64,000 bases of DNA from a virus: IMG/VR virus record IMGVR_UViG_3300021478_000019, positions 53,511-117,510 of that record, one strand, 5' to 3'. Made by a program: the position numbers and the translations under genes. Under the pieces are notes generated by a model, which was not told where the DNA came from, searched no databases, and saw only the letters and a program-made list of their open reading frames with translations. Of this stretch, positions 5,065 through 40,466 are shown piece after piece (positions within the stretch are counted from its first letter, which is position 1; the number at the start of each line of letters is the position of its first letter).

Positions 5065-5092
5065 TTGCACCCAACCTTCGGTGTGGTAGGGT
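5065..5092 (+). promoter_or_regulatory. Rightward promoter for a candidate small RNA
   Basis: TTGCAC (5065-5070), 16-bp spacer, TAGGGT (5087-5092). The -35 box is identical to that of the promoter at 2898-2926. No gene follows before the terminator at 5144-5169, so the transcript would be a short RNA. Confidence 0.4.
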
Positions 5093-5097
5093 TTTGT

Positions 5098-5170
5098 CAC
5101 CGGGGATTGGAACCCTTCGGTGGTTGGTTGGTTGTGTCATCGTGAAGAGCCCCCTTCGGGGGGCTCTTCT
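5098..5170 (+). ncRNA. Candidate small RNA ending in a strong hairpin
   Basis: Between promoter boxes 5065-5092 and the terminator hairpin 5144-5169 lie about 75 bases with no reading frame. A first stem can form from CACCG (5099-5103) and CGGTG (5118-5122), with GGG/CCC inside, and the transcript would end in the 11-bp hairpin. This is the layout of a phage small RNA. No homology was checked, and the segment could simply be an untranslated spacer. Confidence 0.35.
5144..5169. terminator. Strong hairpin terminator
   Basis: GAAGAGCCCCC (5144-5154) pairs with GGGGGCTCTTC (5159-5169) around TTCG, an 11-bp stem with a stable UUCG-type loop. It would end the candidate small RNA on the + strand and could also back up leftward termination after the LysM gene. 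Confidence 0.7.
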
Positions 5171-5176
5171 AGTTGT

Positions 5177-5214
5177 GGAGCCCCCTCCCCAGGGCGGGCG
5201 GGGAGGGAAGCTCC
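5177..5214 (-). terminator. Imperfect hairpin after the LysM gene
   Basis: GGAGC (5177-5181) with GCTCC (5210-5214), and CTCCCC with GGGGAG further in, form an interrupted GC-rich stem 34 bp beyond the stop of the leftward gene ending at 5248. It is a plausible terminator for that gene. Confidence 0.45.
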
Positions 5215-5247
5215 GAAGAGGGACGTGGTTGTTGTGACTACGTGCCC

Positions 5248-5943
5248 TCAGCAGCCATCGTAGGGTCTCCATGGCTGAGCGCCGTCCTTGGCGTACAGCT
5301 GCTGGAACGCCGCGTCCTGCTCCGACCGGGAGGCCGTCCAGGCGCTCCCAGACCGGCCCAGGCTGGCCCAGGTGCTGTTCAGGATCCCGTAAATGTTGCT
5401 GGACCCAGCACCGTTTGTCGACTCCCTGAAGGCCACACAGGACTGGAAGGAGCCCGGCGCCCCATATGACCGGGGCGCCGAGTACGACCTGCTCACCACA
5501 GGCGCCCGGACGGGTGTATAAGTCCTGGTAGGAGCCGTGTAGTAGTGGTGAACGGGAGGTGTACTGGCGGGGGCCGTGGGTAGAACAACAGGGGCCGGCA
5601 CATAGCTGACAGGTGGGAGGGTGATGACCTGGCCCACCAGGATCAAGTTCGGATTGGGAACGTGGTTGTAGGAGGCCAGTTGTTCCCAGGTCCGGGCTGG
5701 GCGGGCTCGGGTGCCGATCAGCCAGAGGGAGTCTCCCGATCGCACGGTGACCCTCGGCATCGGCGCCTGGACCCGCAGCGCCGTGAGGACGGCTCTCGGG
5801 GGCGAACCACTGGCCTGGGCCACATCTCCTACCGCTGGAAGGTGGCTACCGGGGCCTACCGGCGCCGCTGCTGCTGTCGCTGCGGATGCTGCAAAGGGAA
5901 GTGCGCCCGCTAGGGCGCACATGAGTAGGAACTTCTTCCTCAT
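5248..5943 (-). CDS. Secreted LysM and Rpf/transglycosylase-like muralytic enzyme
   Basis: The 231-aa protein likely cuts host peptidoglycan outside the membrane. ATG at 5943 follows AAGGAG with 4 bases spacing. Residues 1-25 (MRKKFLLMCALAGALPFAAS and on) are a classic signal peptide. About residues 75-120 are a LysM peptidoglycan-binding module (VRSGDSLWLIG at its start, NPNLILVGQVITLPP at its end). A Pro/Tyr-rich linker follows, and the C-terminus carries CVAFRESTNG with the expected catalytic Glu, then a YGILNSTWASLG segment, as in Rpf and other transglycosylase-like domains. A signal peptide is unusual for an endolysin released by a holin; this one would be exported by the Sec system. It stands alone, divergent from the 6121 operon. 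Confidence 0.85.
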   Translation of the reverse strand: MRKKFLLMCALAGALPFAASAATAAAAPVGPGSHLPAVGDVAQASGSPPRAVLTALRVQAPMPRVTVRSGDSLWLIGTRARPARTWEQLASYNHVPNPNLILVGQVITLPPVSYVPAPVVLPTAPASTPPVHHYYTAPTRTYTPVRAPVVSRSYSAPRSYGAPGSFQSCVAFRESTNGAGSSNIYGILNSTWASLGRSGSAWTASRSEQDAAFQQLYAKDGAQPWRPYDGC

Positions 5944-7376: not shown

Positions 7377-8449
7377 CGTCTCGGCCCCGAGTGGGTAAGG
7401 CCCCTGGCGGGCGTCTGGCGAAAGGCACCGTCCCGCTCCCTGACGAAGTCGAGTCGCACCCGCGGGCCGGTAAGTGGAGTTGGGGTGGTGGTGACGGTGG
7501 TGACCCCTTCCTCCAGTCCCTGCGGCCCCAGGACGTGGCCCACCAGCGCCAGCAGCTGCTGCGCTGGTGGTCCCACCCCGGTGAGTGGCAGCACAAGTTC
7601 GCCCTCCATGGCCGGCGCAACATTCCCGGTTGGCTGGAGCATCCCGAACGGGAGGCCGAGGAGGTTCGCTGGTGGATGGAGGACACGTTCAGGAAGGCTG
7701 AGTTGTACTGGGTGAGCCCGGAGATGACCGACGTCATCACCACCCTGGCGCCCGGCATCCCCGACACCCTGCCCCAGCCTCCGGTGCCTCACGCCCTGGT
7801 CATGTTCGCCAAGTCCATCCCTGGCACCGACGCCGAGGACGGCAGCAACATCTACACCTCGGCGTTCCTGTGGAGCGACATCGACCTGTACAAGATCGGC
7901 CCTTGCATCGCTATGGAGAGCTACGCCTGGCGGGATTGGGTGGGCCTGTACCGGGGCCTCGACGACGAGGGCCAGCAGCTGTTCCGTGAGATCTACCCCA
8001 ACCGGCTCATGCCCACCGGGGGCTCGGAGTGGCCCATGGGTGCCCTGACCTCGGAGTTCGATACCGCCCCAGCTGAGGATGACCTGCAGAGGCAGTCCAT
8101 GGTGGAGGACCGCCGGCTGCTGTCGACCTTCTGGGCCCTGGCCTCTCAGAAGATTGTGATCGAGTCTCGTCACCAGCCCTCTCGGGCAGAGCGGCGTGCC
8201 GCCCAGCGGGAGGGTCGTCCCCTCGACGAGGTTCGTGTGATCCGGCTGCGGGAACCCGCCACCCGCAGCCGCGGTGATGCTGGTTCGGATGTGGAGTGGT
8301 CCCACCGGTGGATCGTCGGTAAACACTGGCGAAACCAGTGGTACCCCGCATCCGGCCAGCATCGCCCAAAGCTGATCGAGGCGTACCAGAAGGGCCCGGC
8401 TGACAAGCCTCTGGTGCTACGTGAGACAGTGCGAGCCTTGGTGCGGTAA
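7358..8449 (+). CDS. Unknown conserved-looking 363-aa protein
   Basis: Large soluble protein rich in Trp and His. Its C-terminal end, with SHRWIVGKHWRNQWYP and a following KGPADKPLVLRE, reminds me of uncharacterised actinobacterial and actinophage proteins, but I know no function for them. The N-terminal 40 residues are basic and Pro/Gly-rich. It overlaps the ParB-like gene by 19 bp. A cassette of zinc-ribbon, ParB-like and this protein could be a functional unit, for example in lysogeny control or defence, but the sequence shows no enzymatic signature. Transmembrane segments are absent. Confidence 0.75.
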   Translation: MADTPLTSRPRVGKAPGGRLAKGTVPLPDEVESHPRAGKWSWGGGDGGDPFLQSLRPQDVAHQRQQLLRWWSHPGEWQHKFALHGRRNIPGWLEHPEREAEEVRWWMEDTFRKAELYWVSPEMTDVITTLAPGIPDTLPQPPVPHALVMFAKSIPGTDAEDGSNIYTSAFLWSDIDLYKIGPCIAMESYAWRDWVGLYRGLDDEGQQLFREIYPNRLMPTGGSEWPMGALTSEFDTAPAEDDLQRQSMVEDRRLLSTFWALASQKIVIESRHQPSRAERRAAQREGRPLDEVRVIRLREPATRSRGDAGSDVEWSHRWIVGKHWRNQWYPASGQHRPKLIEAYQKGPADKPLVLRETVRALVR

Positions 8450-29615: not shown

Positions 29616-31601
29616 TCATTTACACTCGGCCCAGTTCTGGCCGACGCTGATATTGGCTACCAGGGGTACATCGAGGACAGGCCGGTCGCCCAGGCGAATA
29701 TCCTCCATAGCTTCCCGCACCAACGGTAGGGCTCGGGGTACTACCCGCTCGTCGCACTCGATGATGAACTCATCGTGGATCTGGAGGACCAGGTGGGCGT
29801 CGAGGCCGCGCAGGGCCTCATGCACGGCCACGATGGCCAGCTTGGCGATGTCCGCAGCGGTGCCCTGGATGGGGTGGTTGACGGCCTGGCGCTCGGCGTA
29901 GTACCGCAGCTTGGGCACGTCGGAGGTGACGTCCTTGAGCCGGCGCTTCCGTCCGTAGAGAGTCTCGACGAAGCCCTGGACCCGGCAGAAGTCCTTCACC
30001 TTCTCGGCCCAGCGCTTCACGCCGGGGTAGGCCCGGTGCCACGCTTTATAGACCGCCTCGGCGTCGGACTCAGAGATCCCCGACATCTCCTCCACCCGGC
30101 CTGGGCCCCCCTCAAAGGCGAAGTTGAAGTTGCAGTTCTTGGCGATGGAGCGCTGGGCGGGGGTCACCTCGGTCTGAGGGATGCGCCAGATCAGAGCCGC
30201 GGTCTGGGTGTGCAGGTCCAGGTCATGGGTGTAGGCGTACATCAGCTTGGCATCACGGCACTGGTGAGCCAGGACCCGTAGCTCGATCTGGCTGTAGTCG
30301 GCCACGATGAGCTTGCGGCCCGAAGGGGCAACGAACAGGCGGCGCACCATGGTGGCCTCAAAGGTGTCCTTGTAGCGGGCCGGGATGTTCTGCAGGTTGG
30401 GGGTCGAGCAGCTGAGTCGACCGGTGCGGGCGATGGCCTGGTTGAAGCTGGCCCGGATCCTGTTGTCGTCCTCGATGGTGGGGATATATCCAGCGACGTA
30501 AGTGGAGAGCAGCTTTTGAAGATCCTTGTATTCCAGCACCGCTCCAGCCGCGGGGCTGCGCCGGGCCAGGTACCGCAGGGTCTGGGCGTCGGTGGAGCGG
30601 GCCCCCTTGTCGGTGAACTTGGGGCACTTGATCCGCAGGACGTCATAGAAGTAGTGACCCAGCTGCTGGGTGGAGTTGAGGTTGATCTCGTCGGGCCGGT
30701 CCCAGCGGTCGGTGATGATGGCGATCGCCTGGCGCTGGGCCGCGGTGCGGCGGGTCTCCAGTTCGGGCCGCAGCCGGCGGAACTCCTCCACGTCCACGTA
30801 GGCGCCGTACTGGCGCATGTGGATCAGGACCCGCAGCACCTCCATCTCCAGGTCGAGGAGGGCCCGCAGCTTGGCCAGGCCCCTCTTGGAGAGCTTGCGG
30901 GTCAGCTTCCACCACAACAGCCAGGCCATCTTGGCGTCGACCAGGGAGTAGCGGATGGCCCGCTCAAACTCGACCCGGTACGCCTCCTCGCCCAGCTTCT
31001 CCGCATAGATATAGCCCACGTACAGCTTGGACAAGGCCCCCAGCTTGTAGACGCCCAGGTTCTCGTTGAGCAGGAACGCGGCCACCAACGTGTCGCCGTA
31101 GGGGGGGTCGGGGATCTCCCCGTCGTAGTACTTGCTCACGGACAGCAGGTCGAAGCCCACGTTCTGATTGACCTTGCGCCGGTCGCTGAACATGAGGGGC
31201 TCCAGGGCGTCGAAGACCTGCTCAGGGCGCAGCTGGGGCCGGGGGTCGGGGTGGCCGCAGGGGATGACGTCAGAGCGCCCCGGCCCGGCCAGGCTGATTG
31301 ACCACACCACGTTGGTCATGGGGTCGAGGGCGGGCTTGTCCTTGCCGGCGGCATCGCGGCACTCGTCGGTGCAAAACTTCCGATTGTGCCGTGGTGGGAA
31401 CGGTCGCTGGCAGGAAGGGCAGATCTTCATCTGCTCCGCATCACGGGACGTGCCCTTGGGTATCTCCCCGGCCAGGGCCAGGCCCCGAACCTTGCGGTTG
31501 GTCCGGGTCTCGACGTCGAAGGCGAACTCGTCGAAGTCGAGGTAATCCTCGACGACCTGCTTCAGGTCTTCGGTGGTCCGAACGGTTTTGGTAGCGAGCA
31601 T
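29616..31601 (-). CDS. polA: Family A DNA polymerase (PolA-type) with an inserted zinc finger
   Basis: 661 aa replicative polymerase with a 3'-5' exonuclease. Exonuclease motif I is FAFDVETRT (Asp29, Glu31), motif II NQNVGFDLLS, motif III RYSLVDAKMA. Polymerase motif A is ADYSQIELR near residue 434, motif B KNCNFNFAF near 485, and motif C QIHDEF near 606. Two odd features: residues 61-81 are a Cys4 finger (CPSC...CTDEC) inserted directly after exonuclease motif I, and motif B reads F-E where most relatives have Y-G. No 5'-3' exonuclease domain is present. ATG 31601 follows GAGGGGA. A hairpin at 31620-31661 lies in the leader. Confidence 0.92.
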   Translation of the reverse strand: MLATKTVRTTEDLKQVVEDYLDFDEFAFDVETRTNRKVRGLALAGEIPKGTSRDAEQMKICPSCQRPFPPRHNRKFCTDECRDAAGKDKPALDPMTNVVWSISLAGPGRSDVIPCGHPDPRPQLRPEQVFDALEPLMFSDRRKVNQNVGFDLLSVSKYYDGEIPDPPYGDTLVAAFLLNENLGVYKLGALSKLYVGYIYAEKLGEEAYRVEFERAIRYSLVDAKMAWLLWWKLTRKLSKRGLAKLRALLDLEMEVLRVLIHMRQYGAYVDVEEFRRLRPELETRRTAAQRQAIAIITDRWDRPDEINLNSTQQLGHYFYDVLRIKCPKFTDKGARSTDAQTLRYLARRSPAAGAVLEYKDLQKLLSTYVAGYIPTIEDDNRIRASFNQAIARTGRLSCSTPNLQNIPARYKDTFEATMVRRLFVAPSGRKLIVADYSQIELRVLAHQCRDAKLMYAYTHDLDLHTQTAALIWRIPQTEVTPAQRSIAKNCNFNFAFEGGPGRVEEMSGISESDAEAVYKAWHRAYPGVKRWAEKVKDFCRVQGFVETLYGRKRRLKDVTSDVPKLRYYAERQAVNHPIQGTAADIAKLAIVAVHEALRGLDAHLVLQIHDEFIIECDERVVPRALPLVREAMEDIRLGDRPVLDVPLVANISVGQNWAECK

Positions 31602-31619
31602 TCATTCCCCTCGGGTTGG

Positions 31620-31661
31620 CGAGGGGGAGAGCCAGCGGTCAAGATCCGACTCTCCCCCTCG
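31620..31661. promoter_or_regulatory. Hairpin upstream of polA
   Basis: CGAGGGGGAGAG (31620-31631) and CTCTCCCCCTCG (31650-31661) pair perfectly (12 bp, 18-nt loop) between the ssDNA-binding-protein gene and the polymerase start. It may be an attenuator, or an RNA hairpin that lowers PolA relative to the ssDNA-binding protein. There is no T-run. Confidence 0.45.
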
Positions 31662-31698
31662 GGCGCAGGTGACGGCTCCCGCAGCATCACCTGGCCAT

Positions 31699-32397
31699 TC
31701 AGGTCGTAGCCGCGTCGGCCACTCCCTGAAGTTCGGCCTTGGTCGAGCGCTCCACCGAGGAGGCGTCCCACAGCTTCTTGGCGTAGGTCTGGATCTGGGC
31801 GTCGGTCAGGGGCTTGGTGTCCCAGTCCTCCTCCAGGTCACGGGCCTTGATGGGGCGGATCTGGGTGCGCCGGCCCTTCTTGTTCTTGCCCCCGCTCATG
31901 GAGATGGCGAAGTACTGGTTCTCGATGGGCTGGTACTTGGCGATGGTCTCGGCCACGGTGATGCCGGTCTGCAGGGTGGTGTGGATGGGCTCGTCGGCAT
32001 GCAGGTCCAAGATGTTGAACCGGATCTGGCTGTTGGGGTCGTCGACCTCGCAGATCGGGCACTCGTCGGGCCGCATGCACACGTAGCCCAGCTTCTGGCC
32101 GTTGGGCAGCCAGTCACACCAGTGCTGGTTGAACGATGCGTAGGGCCCGTCCTCCAAGAACATGATCAGCTGCTCCTCGTCGGGAACCTTGAAGAGCTTG
32201 GCGTACTTGGTGGGGGCGTTGGCCTTGGTGCGGGCGTAGCCGCCCCAGCCGGCGGCGACGGCGCCGACCGTCAGGTCGCCGTCATCGCTCCCATTGTCAC
32301 GCTGCGGGCGGCGGCGTCGAGGAGCCTCCTCCTCCTCGTCGTACTCTTCTGCTGGTCGGGGTCGGCGGATGATCCTTCTGGTCGCGGTCTCGGGCAT
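31699..32397 (-). CDS. Candidate phage single-stranded DNA-binding protein
   Basis: 232 aa. The core has KLFKVPDEEQLIMFLEDGP and a Cys pair (CPICE) around residue 127, similar to phage ssDNA-binding proteins that hold a zinc site in their OB-like core, then FNILDLHADEPI and NQYFAISMSGGK. The N-terminus is acidic and basic in turn, starting TRRIIRRPRP, the shared RR-I-IRR motif. ATG 32397 follows AAAGGAACCAGC. Position just before the polymerase supports replication. This is a family-level inference; a search against gp2.5/gp32-type proteins would settle it. Confidence 0.6.
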   Translation of the reverse strand: MPETATRRIIRRPRPAEEYDEEEEAPRRRRPQRDNGSDDGDLTVGAVAAGWGGYARTKANAPTKYAKLFKVPDEEQLIMFLEDGPYASFNQHWCDWLPNGQKLGYVCMRPDECPICEVDDPNSQIRFNILDLHADEPIHTTLQTGITVAETIAKYQPIENQYFAISMSGGKNKKGRRTQIRPIKARDLEEDWDTKPLTDAQIQTYAKKLWDASSVERSTKAELQGVADAATT

Positions 32398-35830: not shown

Positions 35831-35959
35831 TCATGTGAAGGCCAACGCGGCCAGGTAGAACGCCACCACGAAGGTGGCCACCCCCACGATGGTGACGGCG
35901 ACGACGAAGAACACCCGGTCGGAGGGCTTGGGCTCCCTCGGCGGGTCGTCCATCCGCAT
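35831..35959 (-). CDS. Small single-span membrane protein (42 aa)
   Basis: MRMDDPPREPKPSDR, then a single hydrophobic helix (VFFVVAVTIVGVATFVVAFY) and a short end. ATG 35959 overlaps the primase stop (TGATG). No family is recognised. Small membrane proteins of this kind are common between phage replication genes and may modify host membrane functions or exclude other phages. Confidence 0.6.
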   Translation of the reverse strand: MRMDDPPREPKPSDRVFFVVAVTIVGVATFVVAFYLAALAFT

Positions 35960-36846
35960 CACCAGTACGCCGCCAGGATCGCCGTCTGCACGCCCTCGTA
36001 GACCTCTTCAGCGGAACACTCGCCGGGATCCTTGCCGCTGGCGTGCTGGTAGTTGAACACCGTCATGGGCAGCCGGTGGTGCCACTTCTCGGCCAGGATG
36101 CGCCGGGTGGCGGCGATGCCGGTCTTGTCGTTGTCCAGGGCGAGGACCACCTTGTCGGCATGCTCGACCAGGAGGCGCAGTTGCTGGTCGGAGACGGCGG
36201 CGCCGTAGCTGGCCACCGCCGGCACGTTGAGCCCATTCAGGTACACGCAGTCGAGGGGGCTCTCCACCAGCAGCAGGCCGAAGTGCCGGGGGGCCTTGTC
36301 GACGGTGAGCCCGAACAGGGTCTTCGACTTCTTGATGCCGGGCGGGAAGTTGCGGGTGAACTCGGGCCCTTTGCGCTGGTAGCCCCACAGGGCGCCGGCA
36401 GGGCTGTGAATGGGCAGGATCCAGGCGTAGTCCTCGGGGTCGAAGCGCACCCCATAGCGCCGCGCTGCGTACGACCGGAGCTTGCGATGCTCCAGCGCGG
36501 TGCGGGGCGGGAACCCGAAGCGCTCCAGCTGGTCGTCGAAGTTCAGCGGCGGGGGCTCCCACTCCTCCTCATCGTCTTTGTCCAGCTGCACGTCATGCTG
36601 GACGAGCAGCTTGGAGATGCTCCAGGGGTCCAGCCCGGTCAGGTCGCTGACCAGGCGGGCCAGGCTGCCCTTGTACTCGCAGCTGAAGCAATAGTGCAGC
36701 CCGGTGCGCCGGCTGATCGACCAGTGGTCGGTCTTGCCCTCTCGCTCGCCGGTGCGCTTCTCATGGGCCGGGCAGCGGCCCTGGATCTCGTCACCGAGGG
36801 GTCGGATGTCCTCGATGCCGATGTAGTGGAGGAGGTCTTCCAGCAT
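35959..36846 (-). CDS. DNA primase
   Basis: 295 aa. The N-terminal zinc site is CPAH (C25, H28) with CFSC (C53, C56). The TOPRIM domain carries LLLVESPLDCVYLNG (catalytic Glu) and LALDNDKTGIA (D-x-D type). The protein is shorter than bacterial DnaG and lacks the long C-terminal helicase-binding domain, as usual in phages. It overlaps the DnaB gene by TGATG and would make RNA primers for the DnaB-PolA fork. Confidence 0.88.
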   Translation of the reverse strand: MLEDLLHYIGIEDIRPLGDEIQGRCPAHEKRTGEREGKTDHWSISRRTGLHYCFSCEYKGSLARLVSDLTGLDPWSISKLLVQHDVQLDKDDEEEWEPPPLNFDDQLERFGFPPRTALEHRKLRSYAARRYGVRFDPEDYAWILPIHSPAGALWGYQRKGPEFTRNFPPGIKKSKTLFGLTVDKAPRHFGLLLVESPLDCVYLNGLNVPAVASYGAAVSDQQLRLLVEHADKVVLALDNDKTGIAATRRILAEKWHHRLPMTVFNYQHASGKDPGECSAEEVYEGVQTAILAAYW

Positions 36847-38087
36847 CAGCTGTCGTCGGTCTCGTCGTCGTCGGCCTCGTACTCCACCTCGCCCATCTCC
36901 AAGATGGCGCCCATGTCCCAGTCGAAGCGCAGCCGGATCTCCTTCTGGGTGGTGTTGCGGGCGGCGATGATCTTGAGGACGCGTTCGGCCTTATCGTCGG
37001 TCTCTTCCAGCCCGAAGACCACGTCGGAGTCCTGGCCGAAGCTGGAGGAGTAGCCGATGCTGTCCAGCTTGAGGCCCCGCTTGGACTTCCAGGTCAGGGC
37101 CTGGGTGGAGATGACGATCGGGATGCCAGCCCGCTGGGCCAGGCGCTTGAGGGAGCGGGTGACCGAGGTCAGGGCCTGGGCCGAGTTGGGCTCGACGCCC
37201 TGCACCTCGGCGTCGATCATGTAGGCGCCATCGACGAACAGGATGTCGGGCCGGTGCTGGCTGACCTTGGAGCCCAGAGCGCTGACGGTGGTGGTGGAGG
37301 AGGGGTCATGCACGAACAGCATCGGGTGCAGGTCTTCCATCTCGGCCATCATCTGACCCAGCTTGCGCTGCTCATGGGGCCACAGGCTGCCATTGGCCAG
37401 CCGGTTGTAGCTGACACCGGCCCGGAAGGTGTCATGGCGCATGGACTGCTCCTGGGTGGACATCTCAAAGGTAATGAACATGGGCTTATGGCCGCTGGCG
37501 TGCGCCGCGATGCACATGGCCAGGATGATCACTGACTTGCCCACCTTGGACGTGCCCACGATGGAGATCAGCTGCTCGGGTTGGAGCCCGGCGGTGGCCC
37601 GGTCCATGCCGGGGAAGCCGGTGGGGATGCCCCGCATCCCTTCCTGGTTGCTCAGGCTGGCGTAGAAAGCCAATCGGGCCTCCGTGGTCTTGCACAGGTC
37701 GATGTCATGGAGGTCGGAGACCTCCGAGTGGGTGGCCTCCAGCCCGTGGGCCAAGATCTTGATGGCGCTGGCGGCGTCGCCGGCCTTGAGGGGCTCCTGG
37801 GTCCGGTCCAGCATGTCGAGGACCAGGGCATAGCGGTGCCGCTCCCGCATCTGCTCTACGTAGTAGGACAGGGGCTCCTGGGTGGGGACCAGGGTGTAGC
37901 GGGGGAAGGCGTGGTGGAGCGCATCGGTGCCGGGGGAGGCACCGTGGTTGTTCCAGTGGTCGACCATCCAGCTGAAGACGGTGCCGTTGTCGGGGTCCGC
38001 GAAGTAGTCCCGAGTGATGCGGGCGTCCAGCACGGGACGAATATCCGACTCGACGACTTTGCACAGGAGGGCCCATTCAATGTCCAT
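36846..38087 (-). CDS. dnaB: Replicative DNA helicase (DnaB-type)
   Basis: 413 aa, hexameric helicase that unwinds the fork. The N-terminal part is the helical DnaB-type domain; the RecA-like core has Walker A GTSKVGKS (178-185), an ITFEMSTQEQ segment, Walker B near LFVDGAYMID and SSFGQDSDVVFGL. The C-terminus is acidic (EYEADDDETDDS). ATG 38087 follows AGGGG. It is adjacent to primase and close to a DnaC-like loader, as in the usual phage replication set. Confidence 0.92.
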   Translation of the reverse strand: MDIEWALLCKVVESDIRPVLDARITRDYFADPDNGTVFSWMVDHWNNHGASPGTDALHHAFPRYTLVPTQEPLSYYVEQMRERHRYALVLDMLDRTQEPLKAGDAASAIKILAHGLEATHSEVSDLHDIDLCKTTEARLAFYASLSNQEGMRGIPTGFPGMDRATAGLQPEQLISIVGTSKVGKSVIILAMCIAAHASGHKPMFITFEMSTQEQSMRHDTFRAGVSYNRLANGSLWPHEQRKLGQMMAEMEDLHPMLFVHDPSSTTTVSALGSKVSQHRPDILFVDGAYMIDAEVQGVEPNSAQALTSVTRSLKRLAQRAGIPIVISTQALTWKSKRGLKLDSIGYSSSFGQDSDVVFGLEETDDKAERVLKIIAARNTTQKEIRLRFDWDMGAILEMGEVEYEADDDETDDS

Positions 38088-38119: not shown

Positions 38120-38578
38120 CTAAGGGCTCGAGTGTGTCGCCACACCGACCCCGTGGGGACCGAAGGCCCAGCGCTGCTCCTCCAGCCCGTAGTAGACCCG
38201 CCAGACGTCGGGCATGGTGGGGAGCTTGCGGCCCAGGCCAGCTGCGGTCTCGGAGAAGACGTAGCGGGCCGGCAGGTTCTGCCGCTCCATCAGCCGGGCC
38301 ACAGCCATGGCGAACTCGGGCTGCCGGCTGGTGACGCAGACGTCGATTCGCATCCCGGTGGTGGCCAGCATCGACCACATCTGGTTAATGGTGGGCCCGT
38401 TCAGCTGCCAGTACCGCACCGCCTGATCGAAGAGGCCCATGCGCCGTTTGATCCACTCCAGGTCACGGATGACCCGGCCCCCTGGGAGGGTGGCCACCGC
38501 ACCCTCCCAGATGAAGATGGACCGGAGCGGGACCTCAGTCCCCAGCTGACCGTTCTTCACGGGTCCGATAGTCCTCAC
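38120..38578 (-). CDS. Unknown protein next to the helicase loader (152 aa)
   Basis: Contains RVIRDLEWIKRRMGLFDQA and GMRIDVCVTSRQPEF followed by AVARLMERQNLPARYVF, an alternating helix/strand pattern that could be a Rossmann-like fold. No active-site residues can be named. It overlaps the loader gene by 44 bp at its 5' end; a later GTG (MKNGQLG) is possible. It lies 33 bp upstream of the DnaB gene. Function unknown, likely replication-associated by position. Confidence 0.6.
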   Translation of the reverse strand: MRTIGPVKNGQLGTEVPLRSIFIWEGAVATLPGGRVIRDLEWIKRRMGLFDQAVRYWQLNGPTINQMWSMLATTGMRIDVCVTSRQPEFAMAVARLMERQNLPARYVFSETAAGLGRKLPTMPDVWRVYYGLEEQRWAFGPHGVGVATHSSP

Positions 38579-39170
38579 TACCGATGTAGATCACCTCGGT
38601 GGCTTCGTGGAGGAAGGAGACCAGCCCCTCGGTGTAGCGTTGGTCAAGCTGGTCTTCGCCGCAGTTGGAGGTCAGCAGGAACGGCAGTCCCCGGTTGTAG
38701 CGGAAACGAGTCAGGTCGAAGAGTTGGTTGGCAGACCAACCCGAACCTGACTCGTATTCGCGTCCGATGTCATCCAAGAGGACCCAGTCGGCGGCAGTCC
38801 GCTTGGCGCCCCCCTTGATGCGGCGAACGTGTTCCTCGATCCGGTACCACTCGTCCTGGGCCTCCTCGTTCCCGTTTTTGCCGAAGCTCGCCAGGGTGTA
38901 CTGCTTCTTGACCAGTTCCACCAGGGCGGTGAACTCGATGGCCTCGATGCGGTAGTTCCTGGCCTTGGCCTCCTTCAGTACCAGGCAGGACAGCATGGTC
39001 TTACCTACCCCCGCCGGGCCCAGGAGCGTCAGGCCGTGACCCTTGGCCCGGTTGTCGTCCAGGTTGGCGATATAGGTCGTCACCTGGTCGAGCGCATCCT
39101 GCATGTAGTCGTCGGTAACCCGGATGTCCTCCAGGGTCATGTCGCGGTATGGACCGAATATGTCACGCAT
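38535..39170 (-). CDS. DnaC-like helicase loader ATPase
   Basis: 211 aa AAA+ ATPase. Walker A is GPAGVGKT (51-58), Walker B VLLDDIG (130-136), a sensor I Asn occurs in LTSN, and the length and layout match phage DnaC-type loaders (about 200 aa, short N-terminal arm). It would load DnaB at the origin. ATG overlaps the WhiB stop (TAATG). The preceding WhiB and initiator-like genes make an O/P-type initiation cluster. Confidence 0.88.
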   Translation of the reverse strand: MRDIFGPYRDMTLEDIRVTDDYMQDALDQVTTYIANLDDNRAKGHGLTLLGPAGVGKTMLSCLVLKEAKARNYRIEAIEFTALVELVKKQYTLASFGKNGNEEAQDEWYRIEEHVRRIKGGAKRTAADWVLLDDIGREYESGSGWSANQLFDLTRFRYNRGLPFLLTSNCGEDQLDQRYTEGLVSFLHEATEVIYIGSEDYRTREERSAGD

Positions 39171-39577
39171 TACTGCTCCTTTCTGGTTGTGCCCCTACGC
39201 TTTTTGAACCCCGCCACTCGTTGCTTGTGGGCGATCGCCCTCGCCACCATCTGGGTCTGGAGGGAACGGCTCCAGCCGCGGGCCCAGTCATAGAATTGCT
39301 TCCGCCCTTCGTAGATCTTTCGCCGTTCGGCGGCACTATATCCCGACCAGATCCCGTACGGCACCTCTGGGAAGTGACGGATCGACCAGCGGGCGCACGG
39401 CTTGCGTACCGGGCAGCCGATGCAGGTGGCTCGGCACAGGGCCAGGGCCTCCAGCCCGGACACCGGGCCCTCCTCAAAGTACAGGTCTCGCATGTCGCGG
39501 CACTTCCGACCGGGGTGGTCGAGGAAGTCGTAGCTGTCGGGGTCGCCGCCGTACCACCAGATGGGGATGCTGGTCAT
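39170..39577 (-). CDS. whiB: WhiB-like iron-sulfur protein
   Basis: 135 aa. Conserved cysteines are Cys26 (RKCRDM), Cys52, Cys55 and Cys61 (TCIGCPVRKPC), with one extra Cys48. The turn is YGIWSGYSAAER, a variant of G-V-W-G-G. The C-terminal 50 residues are basic and helical (AIAHKQRVAGFKKRRG). ATG 39577 overlaps the initiator stop (ATGA). Wbl proteins hold a 4Fe-4S cluster and bind host sigma factor; this one probably switches host or phage transcription. It lies in the replication operon, so it is made early. Confidence 0.88.
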   Translation of the reverse strand: MTSIPIWWYGGDPDSYDFLDHPGRKCRDMRDLYFEEGPVSGLEALALCRATCIGCPVRKPCARWSIRHFPEVPYGIWSGYSAAERRKIYEGRKQFYDWARGWSRSLQTQMVARAIAHKQRVAGFKKRRGTTRKEQ

Positions 39578-40338
39578 GTTGCTGCGGCCCGGACCTTGGA
39601 GGGGTAGGTGATCCATGCCGACCGATTGTCCCGTACCCGTGAGACACCCACCTTGGCCTGGGCCGATAGCACCAGGCTCACCAATTCGGGCCTGTAGCTC
39701 AGGAACACCCGCCAGGCCGGGCGCCTGGACCTACCGGCCCACTGCGAGTGCTTCCCGAACTCCCACATCATGGCTTCAATAAATGTGGGCCCGAACTGCT
39801 TGTCTTTCTCCCACCACAGCCTGAGATTCCGGGCCAGGGCCGGGGTGTTGATCTCTGAAGGGACCACACGAATTCCACAGCTTGTACACACCTTGGGGAA
39901 AACCTCGCCGGCCAGCTGGTACCAGGGACCCCTCCTGAGTTGCTTGAAAGAACTCGCCCGAGTAAATACAAGGTGCCCTTCGGGCACACTCATGTCGCTT
40001 CGGCTTCGCCTTCGCGACATGACGAGGGTCGGGGGCTCACTCAGCCGCTGCGCGGCTAAGCTATCCCCCTCTGCTGCCGGGGGCAGCGAGGTCACAGAAA
40101 TAGTGCAAAGAATTTTCTGGGCCAGAGGGAGGACCCTGGTCCCCGCCTCGGTGCGGTCGAGGTAGCCAGCGTCCTCAAGCTCCTGGTACCGGGTCCTGCC
40201 GTCTGATTCCCCGGTCAGGTTGTTGACGATTTCCACAACCTCTTCGATGGGCTTCTTGATCAGCCCCCGGCGAGAAGACAGCTGGTAGAGGGTGGGAAGT
40301 ACCTGAAGGGCGCGTTCATCCAGGCTGATGTTGTCCAT
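39574..40338 (-). CDS. Replication initiator-like protein carrying a hairpin cluster in its linker
   Basis: 254 aa. Residues 1-75 look like a winged helix (LPTLYQLSSRRGLIKKPIEE, then RYQELEDAGYLDRTEAG). Residues about 123-254 are a second domain with CTSCGIRV and WWEKDKQFGPTFIEAMMWEF. Between them, residues about 74-122 are low complexity and are encoded by DNA that folds into four hairpins (39973-40087). ATG 40338 is behind GGGGATAACTT. The gene is immediately upstream of the WhiB, DnaC-like and DnaB genes, the order of lambda-type initiators, whose origin is also inside the initiator gene. The initiator role is inferred from this order and the fold. Confidence 0.55.
   Translation of the reverse strand: MDNISLDERALQVLPTLYQLSSRRGLIKKPIEEVVEIVNNLTGESDGRTRYQELEDAGYLDRTEAGTRVLPLAQKILCTISVTSLPPAAEGDSLAAQRLSEPPTLVMSRRRSRSDMSVPEGHLVFTRASSFKQLRRGPWYQLAGEVFPKVCTSCGIRVVPSEINTPALARNLRLWWEKDKQFGPTFIEAMMWEFGKHSQWAGRSRRPAWRVFLSYRPELVSLVLSAQAKVGVSRVRDNRSAWITYPSKVRAAAT
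39973..40119. other. Candidate replication origin: hairpin cluster with A+T-rich patch
   Basis: Four consecutive hairpins with short loops: GTGCCC/GGGCAC (39973-39987), CATGTCGC/GCGACATG (39991-40021), AGCCGC/GCGGCT (40043-40057, itself inside GGGGG 40031-40035 and CCCCC 40065-40069), and GCTGCC/GGCAGC (40073-40087). An A+T-rich piece with CAGAAA/TTTCTG (40095-40119) follows. It lies in the coding linker of a gene whose product looks like an initiator. This layout of structured repeats plus an easily melted patch fits an origin. A mobile hairpin element inserted in frame is the alternative. Confidence 0.45.
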
Positions 40339-40466
40339 AAGTTATCCCCAATAAGGTCCGACGTTGGATGGAACACCCCGCCACCGAGGTGGCGAGTGGA
40401 GTCGTTTTACACCCCGGCCCTGGCCCGGTCAAGGGGAGAAATACGCCCGGAACTAAGGTGCTGGTA

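Follow-up and report, generated by a model that had tools for sequence, protein, structure and literature searches.

A conserved coding-strand hairpin in the linker-coding part of an initiator-like phage gene as a candidate replication origin

We identified a coding-strand hairpin, usually with a C(GNA)G triloop, inside an initiator-like gene (g254) of a family of phages. Comparison of the relatives showed that it is kept by selection at the level of the nucleic acid, at the same position of the gene throughout the family. The stretch of hairpins in the linker-coding part of g254 is our best candidate for the start of genome copying, and we lean towards the view that this part of the gene forms the core of a phage replication origin, which would then lie within the gene for its initiator. 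The first-pass annotation of the same DNA had proposed a lambda-like origin at a hairpin cluster within an initiator-like gene. The comparison supports selection on the nucleic acid and an initiator-like gene; support from lambda-type iterons and from GC skew was not obtained.

Organization of the replication block and the g254 protein

The window (the whole 64,000-nt stretch of DNA that was analysed, bases 53,511-117,510 of a 117.5-kb virus record) contains the following features around g254.

39574..40338, minus strand: g254, initiator-like gene, 254 amino acids, with a predicted winged helix, disordered linker and helical C-terminal domain
39170..39616, minus strand: WhiB-like regulator, overlapping the 3' end of g254
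38535..39170, minus strand: DnaC-like helicase loader
38120-38578: gene of 152 amino acids (g152), between loader and DnaB
36846..38087, minus strand: DnaB-like replicative helicase
35959..36846, minus strand: DNA primase (phrog_47, E=9.8e-26)
40339..40466, no strand: divergent intergenic region between g254 and terL, with TTATCCCCA at 40342-40350, one mismatch from a DnaA box

The genes 3' of g254 on the same strand encode WhiB, the DnaC-like loader, the 152-amino-acid protein of unknown function, DnaB, primase, an SNF2-like helicase and DNA polymerase I, and terL is the divergent upstream neighbour (likely start GTG 40467, ~130 bp away). The earlier assignments of g254, WhiB, loader, DnaB and primase hold, the last by its match to phrog_47. 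The order g254-WhiB-loader-g152-DnaB is conserved among relatives. In these, g152 shows 46-62% identity and has no Pfam or PHROG match, and WhiB invariably separates the initiator-like gene from the helicase loader; a WhiB gene is an unusual member of a replication operon.

No Pfam or PHROG match was found for the g254 protein. An AlphaFold model of the g254 member of relative L007 predicts with confidence a winged helix (approximately residues 7-78) and a helical domain (residues 145-245). The stretch between them (residues 88-140) is predicted to be disordered (pLDDT below 50) and coincides with the hairpin region, in agreement with the earlier placing of the hairpins in linker-coding DNA. 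Searches of viral predicted structures matched g254 to a putative replication protein of Ralstonia phage RSK1 (E=1.6e-4), to several annotated replisome organizers and to proteins with a lambda gpO N-terminal or a DnaD annotation; E-values ranged from 1e-4 to 3e-2 and global TM was low because of the linker. Matches in the PDB were to single winged helices only, with weak E-values. The conserved synteny and the structure matches to phage replication proteins suggest that g254 is likely an initiator, as the term initiator-like had implied.

Relatives and extent of the lineage

Viral contigs and phage records gave no match when they were searched directly with g254. Since g254 is too divergent for such a search, relatives were fetched via TerL, which yielded 46 contigs, with later additions by alignment query. 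The g254 gene is present in all 38 relatives that reach the spot (39 including the window), and the eight contigs without it end within or just before terL. Linkers of the relatives were delimited by alignment, giving 31 non-redundant linkers for the hairpin census.

Bacterial and archaeal genome contigs contained no g254-type match, and a protein search of named phages found no trace of g254. In BRock, LuckySocke, GiJojo, pSt2308, Alice, Phrappuccino and LE2-3, which are relatives by TerL, DnaB or loader, no such cluster was found in the regions examined; with the Streptomyces BRock-type phages TerL is ~50% shared, and their layout is different. Because of this absence from bacterial genomes, named phages and the BRock-type regions examined, the element appears to belong to an uncultured phage lineage (soil phages). 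The WhiB gene and the BRock-type relatives point to an actinobacterial host.

Hairpins in the window

The hairpin cluster of the window consists of the following elements.

40073..40087, minus strand: hairpin A, GCTGCC[CCC]GGCAGC, 6 bp, 3-nt loop
40031..40069, minus strand: main hairpin B, the conserved, covarying element of the family
40043-40057, minus strand: core of hairpin B, AGCCGC[GCA]GCGGCT, 6 bp, 3-nt loop, extendable to about 40031-40069
40039-40048/40052-40061, minus strand: inner stem arms of hairpin B
40031-40035/40065-40069, minus strand: outer GGGGG/CCCCC arms of hairpin B
39990..40022, minus strand: hairpin C, TCATGTCGC / GCGACATGA, 9-bp outer stem, GAA/GAA internal loop and inner GGC[GAA]GCC
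39973..39987, minus strand: hairpin D, GTGCCC[GAA]GGGCAC, 6 bp, 3-nt loop
40095-40100 and 40114-40119, no strand: arms of the A+T-rich inverted repeat CAGAAA/TTTCTG, 13 nt between arms

The four hairpins (39973-40087) and the inverted repeat (40095-40119) that had been noted from the sequence are present. The description of four tight hairpins is correct in number, but it understated the one at 39990-40022, whose loop region is itself a second small hairpin. A GC-rich triloop hairpin at the position of hairpin A is frequent in relatives (e.g., CCGCC[GCA]GGCGG); the A+T-rich repeat shows no clear conservation. This G+C-rich DNA has many short perfect hairpins (208 over the 64 kb of the window), and comparable clusters within 150 bp occur elsewhere in it (four hairpins at 22.1 kb; three each at 31.5, 35.2 and 60.5 kb), so that the hairpin count by itself is unremarkable. 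Folded as DNA, the minus (coding) strand of the cluster ranks first in stability of 3,192 GC-corrected windows of 166 nt, and the plus strand eleventh. The decisive evidence for the hairpins is comparative, drawn from the aligned linkers, and is far stronger than that from the single sequence.

Selection acts on the nucleic acid

The typical hairpin has a 3-nt G-N-A loop, a C:G closing pair and a GC-rich stem, in agreement with the C(GNA)G rule. A perfect coding-strand hairpin of this kind with a stem of at least 5 bp was found in 25 of the 31 linkers (31 hairpins in total), compared to a mean of 0.9 linkers and a maximum of 5 in 500 synonymous-codon shuffles. Its density is 4.86/kb in linkers and 0.034/kb elsewhere in the same loci (~140-fold), and within linkers 31 such hairpins lie on the coding strand and 3 on the other. 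Triloops make up 26 of the 44 stem-6 hairpins in linkers versus 115 of 685 elsewhere. Stems of the main hairpin reach 14 bp and include T.G wobbles, and many have basal tandem G.A mismatches (GGGAG / CGACC). The main hairpin or an equivalent of it also appeared on DNA folding in the remaining members: the triloop is TTC, TCC or TGC in L003, L005, L008 and L012 (as well as L063), L023 has a 13-bp stem, and L044 and L043 have tetraloops, the latter alongside a GNA hairpin. In the held-out contigs with usable sequence, a GNA hairpin was present in two of three (L060, L065), and the third (L063) has the TCC triloop.

A gap-free alignment of 22 main hairpins showed 80.6% paired cells, compared to 61.3% after shuffling. 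The covariation score was 0.555 versus 0.197 (sd 0.029) for shuffled alignments, none of 500 shuffles reached it, and sliding the partner lowered it to 0.09-0.20. As these 22 rows were preselected for having the hairpin, the codon-shuffle census of the 31 linkers is the unbiased test. Non-Watson-Crick cells comprise 40 G.T and 2 A.C, indicating that the strand which folds has the polarity of the coding strand. In 5, 9 and 12 members the first base of the loop falls on codon position 1, 2 and 3, respectively, and the peptides encoded there are unrelated (VAKRL, LARSAG, MREAH). This use of all three codon phases argues that the nucleic acid and not the peptide is selected. The earlier suggestion that DNA rather than protein is under selection is thus strongly supported by compensatory stems, codon phases and the shuffle census, together with the disorder of the linker. 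Alignment of the gene from relatives showed that the peptide varies and the hairpin stays, the opposite of the outcome that had been named as refuting the suggestion. The hairpin is retained, with TCTAG...CTGGG flanks, even in L021, where the C-domain of g254 is lost.

A similar peptide (SLxAKRL/SLAAQRL) is encoded in about one third of the members, as would be expected if the hairpin followed as a by-product from peptide conservation or from G+C palindromes arising by chance. Other members, however, encode the hairpin in the other two codon phases, and it almost never arises in synonymous shuffles. Together with the covariation, these observations refute the by-product reading, to which we give practically no credence. 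Two other candidates were rejected: a start codon internal to the gene, within the GGRATG of the 3' arm, as the ATG is in frame in some members only, and palindromic inserts of the Rickettsia RPE kind, as there is a single locus per genome and a common sequence is absent.

Two further observations were made on the linkers. The L021 relative of g254 (minus strand of its locus, near 5340-5890) has also retained the GTCTGCCC element and the C-terminal tail. In the linkers of L010, L019, L042, L016, L014 and L004, extra hairpin-like repeats (GGCGAGCGCAGCGAGCC, CCCCGGAGCGAAGCGGAGGGG) lie 3' of the main hairpin. Their GC-GNA-GC core is flanked by paired GA/GA internal mismatches, a form which suits sheared G.A pairs.

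DNA or RNA as the folded molecule

The loops in the linkers consist of three bases, mostly GAA or GCA. GNRA and UUCG tetraloops, which are usual in RNA, were absent from the linker loop census. The whole-linker RNA folding energy is only mildly below that of synonymous shuffles in most members. In the clade of L003, L005, L008, L012 and L063 the coding-strand loop is TNC, so that the GNA loop lies on the opposite DNA strand. The N4 promoter hairpins follow the C(GNA)G rule in order to extrude at physiological supercoiling (PMC4496689), and for the d(GCGAAGC) mini-hairpin a Tm of 78 C and nuclease resistance are reported (PMC4686876). The loop rule, the missing RNA tetraloops, the mild RNA stability and the clade with the complemented loop favour DNA as the molecule that folds.

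RNA stays a live rival because the wobble polarity fits mRNA and single-stranded coding DNA alike. In that case the hairpins would act in the mRNA of g254 and the replication operon, as a structured RNA within the coding region that controls translation, decay or the binding of a regulator, by which the initiator would regulate itself. G.U being kept and A.C not is what an mRNA structure predicts, and RNA folding of the cluster in the window gave z values of -5.3 (minus strand) and -3.2 (plus strand). Against an mRNA structure, the C(GNA)G triloop is hugely enriched in linkers whose overall RNA energy is only mildly low, three-base loops take the place of the tetraloops expected of RNA, and one clade carries the loop in complemented form. 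In Rfam the window has no match above the gathering score, with only chance-level matches near the cluster, and a tRNA search was empty. Taken together, we regard a role in mRNA as rather unlikely.

The preferred reading, a DNA fold, has two known relatives in loop structure. The promoter hairpins of the N4 virion RNA polymerase share the three-base loop with 5' G and 3' A and the C:G closing pair (PMC4496689). However, the N4 hairpins are several short promoters, whereas the g254 hairpin occurs at a single site in each genome, within a replication gene, and its stem can reach 14 bp. The identical loop rule could suggest an extruded-hairpin promoter for a phage RNA polymerase, but a single locus is not a set of early promoters, a second conserved cluster was not found in three records, and an open frame of the length of the N4 virion polymerase was not found in the record pieces examined, which makes such a promoter highly improbable. 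Mini-hairpins of the d(GCGAAGC) type (GNA triloops) have the same loop and closing G-C pairs (PMC4686876); they are known mainly as oligonucleotides, whereas the g254 hairpin has a fixed place in the genome, where compensatory evolution has conserved it. Covariation in a structure is the standard way to prove a functional RNA, and a case pointing to DNA would be rare.

Accessory elements near the hairpin

The motif GTCTGYCC occurs once per linker in 19 of the 31 linkers, compared to 1.0 by codon shuffle (maximum 4), mostly some 70-115 nt 3' of the main hairpin; it was not found in the window. GTCTGYCC may be a second DNA-level element; as its codon phase is identical in every case, the peptide may also contribute. 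DnaA boxes (TTRTCCACA) number 12 in 8.4 kb of g254-terL intergenic regions versus 23 in 240 kb, with true boxes in this intergenic region in only 6 of 28 relatives. Across relatives, AT content is mildly raised on either side of hairpin B, averaging 0.50 ~60 nt away on the 5' side and reaching 0.48 at +80 to +120, versus about 0.38-0.40. A direct repeat search for iterons in the window region gave only two-copy repeats of 8-11 nt.

A candidate origin inside the gene of its probable initiator

In lambdoid phages the origin lies inside the initiator gene (PMC7466680). Like ori-lambda, the candidate origin lies in the linker-coding middle of an initiator-like gene next to the helicase-loader gene, and like the lambda initiator, the g254 protein is predicted to have an N-domain of the winged-helix type and a separate C-domain (PMC7466680). 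Unlike ori-lambda, which is recognised through repeated iterons plus an A+T-rich tract, the g254 linker is without iterons, and what is conserved in it is a folded hairpin with compensating changes in its sequence. Because iterons are lacking, we do not claim membership of the lambda O family. In phage SPP1, oriL is described within gene 38, which encodes the replisome organizer G38P; similarly, the g254 candidate lies inside a replisome-organizer-like gene followed by helicase loader and DnaB (PMC6316719). SPP1 differs in its use of direct repeats and an A+T-rich unwinding element, and the parts of its account consulted describe no conserved DNA hairpin (PMC6316719).

Cumulative GC skew, which had been proposed as a check, showed no minimum at the cluster in its own record or in two relatives. 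In its own record the skew instead has a broad local maximum there, whereas a simple bidirectional origin would give the reverse. An origin within the gene is what we infer, with a GC skew that gives it no support and with iterons absent.

Two other roles in DNA were considered. The hairpins could mark a packaging start (pac/cos) for the terminase, since terL is the divergent neighbour and starts ~130 bp from g254 in the window. Sites for pac are often near terminase genes, as in SPP1. The element, however, lies in the first gene of the replication block, terL reads the opposite way, the predicted-structure matches are replication proteins and not small terminases, and we know of no pac site that features strand-specific hairpins; a packaging start is thus quite unlikely. 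Folding specific to the coding strand, with primase and DnaC/DnaB genes nearby, would also suit a single-strand initiation or primosome site (a PAS-like or primase-binding hairpin) for lagging-strand or restart priming. As there is one locus per genome, and the nearby GTCTGYCC and DnaA boxes suggest parts of a double-strand origin, we consider such a site very unlikely.

For the favoured in-gene origin, a mechanism can be proposed in which the g254 product would bind the linker region through its winged helix. Leftward transcription of the replication operon, or negative supercoiling, would expose the coding strand, which would fold into an extremely stable DNA mini-hairpin. The mini-hairpin would hold the duplex open and mark the site, and the adjacent single strand would take the DnaC-like loader and DnaB, possibly with primase. 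The amino acids of the linker would serve as spacer only, so that the coding sequence there could accommodate the origin. More tentatively, and with somewhat less than even confidence, we suggest that the origin is recognised by the shape of the folded single-stranded C(GNA)G hairpin, which would persist through compensatory change while sequence and codon phase drift within the code for the disordered linker of the initiator. If so, one phage gene would carry two messages, a linker peptide of little import and a DNA fold, and an origin would evolve like a structured RNA. The element provides a precise candidate origin for a widespread uncultured phage group without an annotated initiator.

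Other strongly folding stretches in the window

The 5' end of the DNA polymerase gene (31460-31770) folds unusually well on both strands, and its minus strand ranks next after the hairpin cluster. Strongly folding stretches were also found at 8200-8390, 5080-5310 and 2040-2330, with perfect hairpins of 10-12 bp (e.g., 8243-8271, 5144-5169 and 2157-2186); these are probably terminators or intergenic elements.
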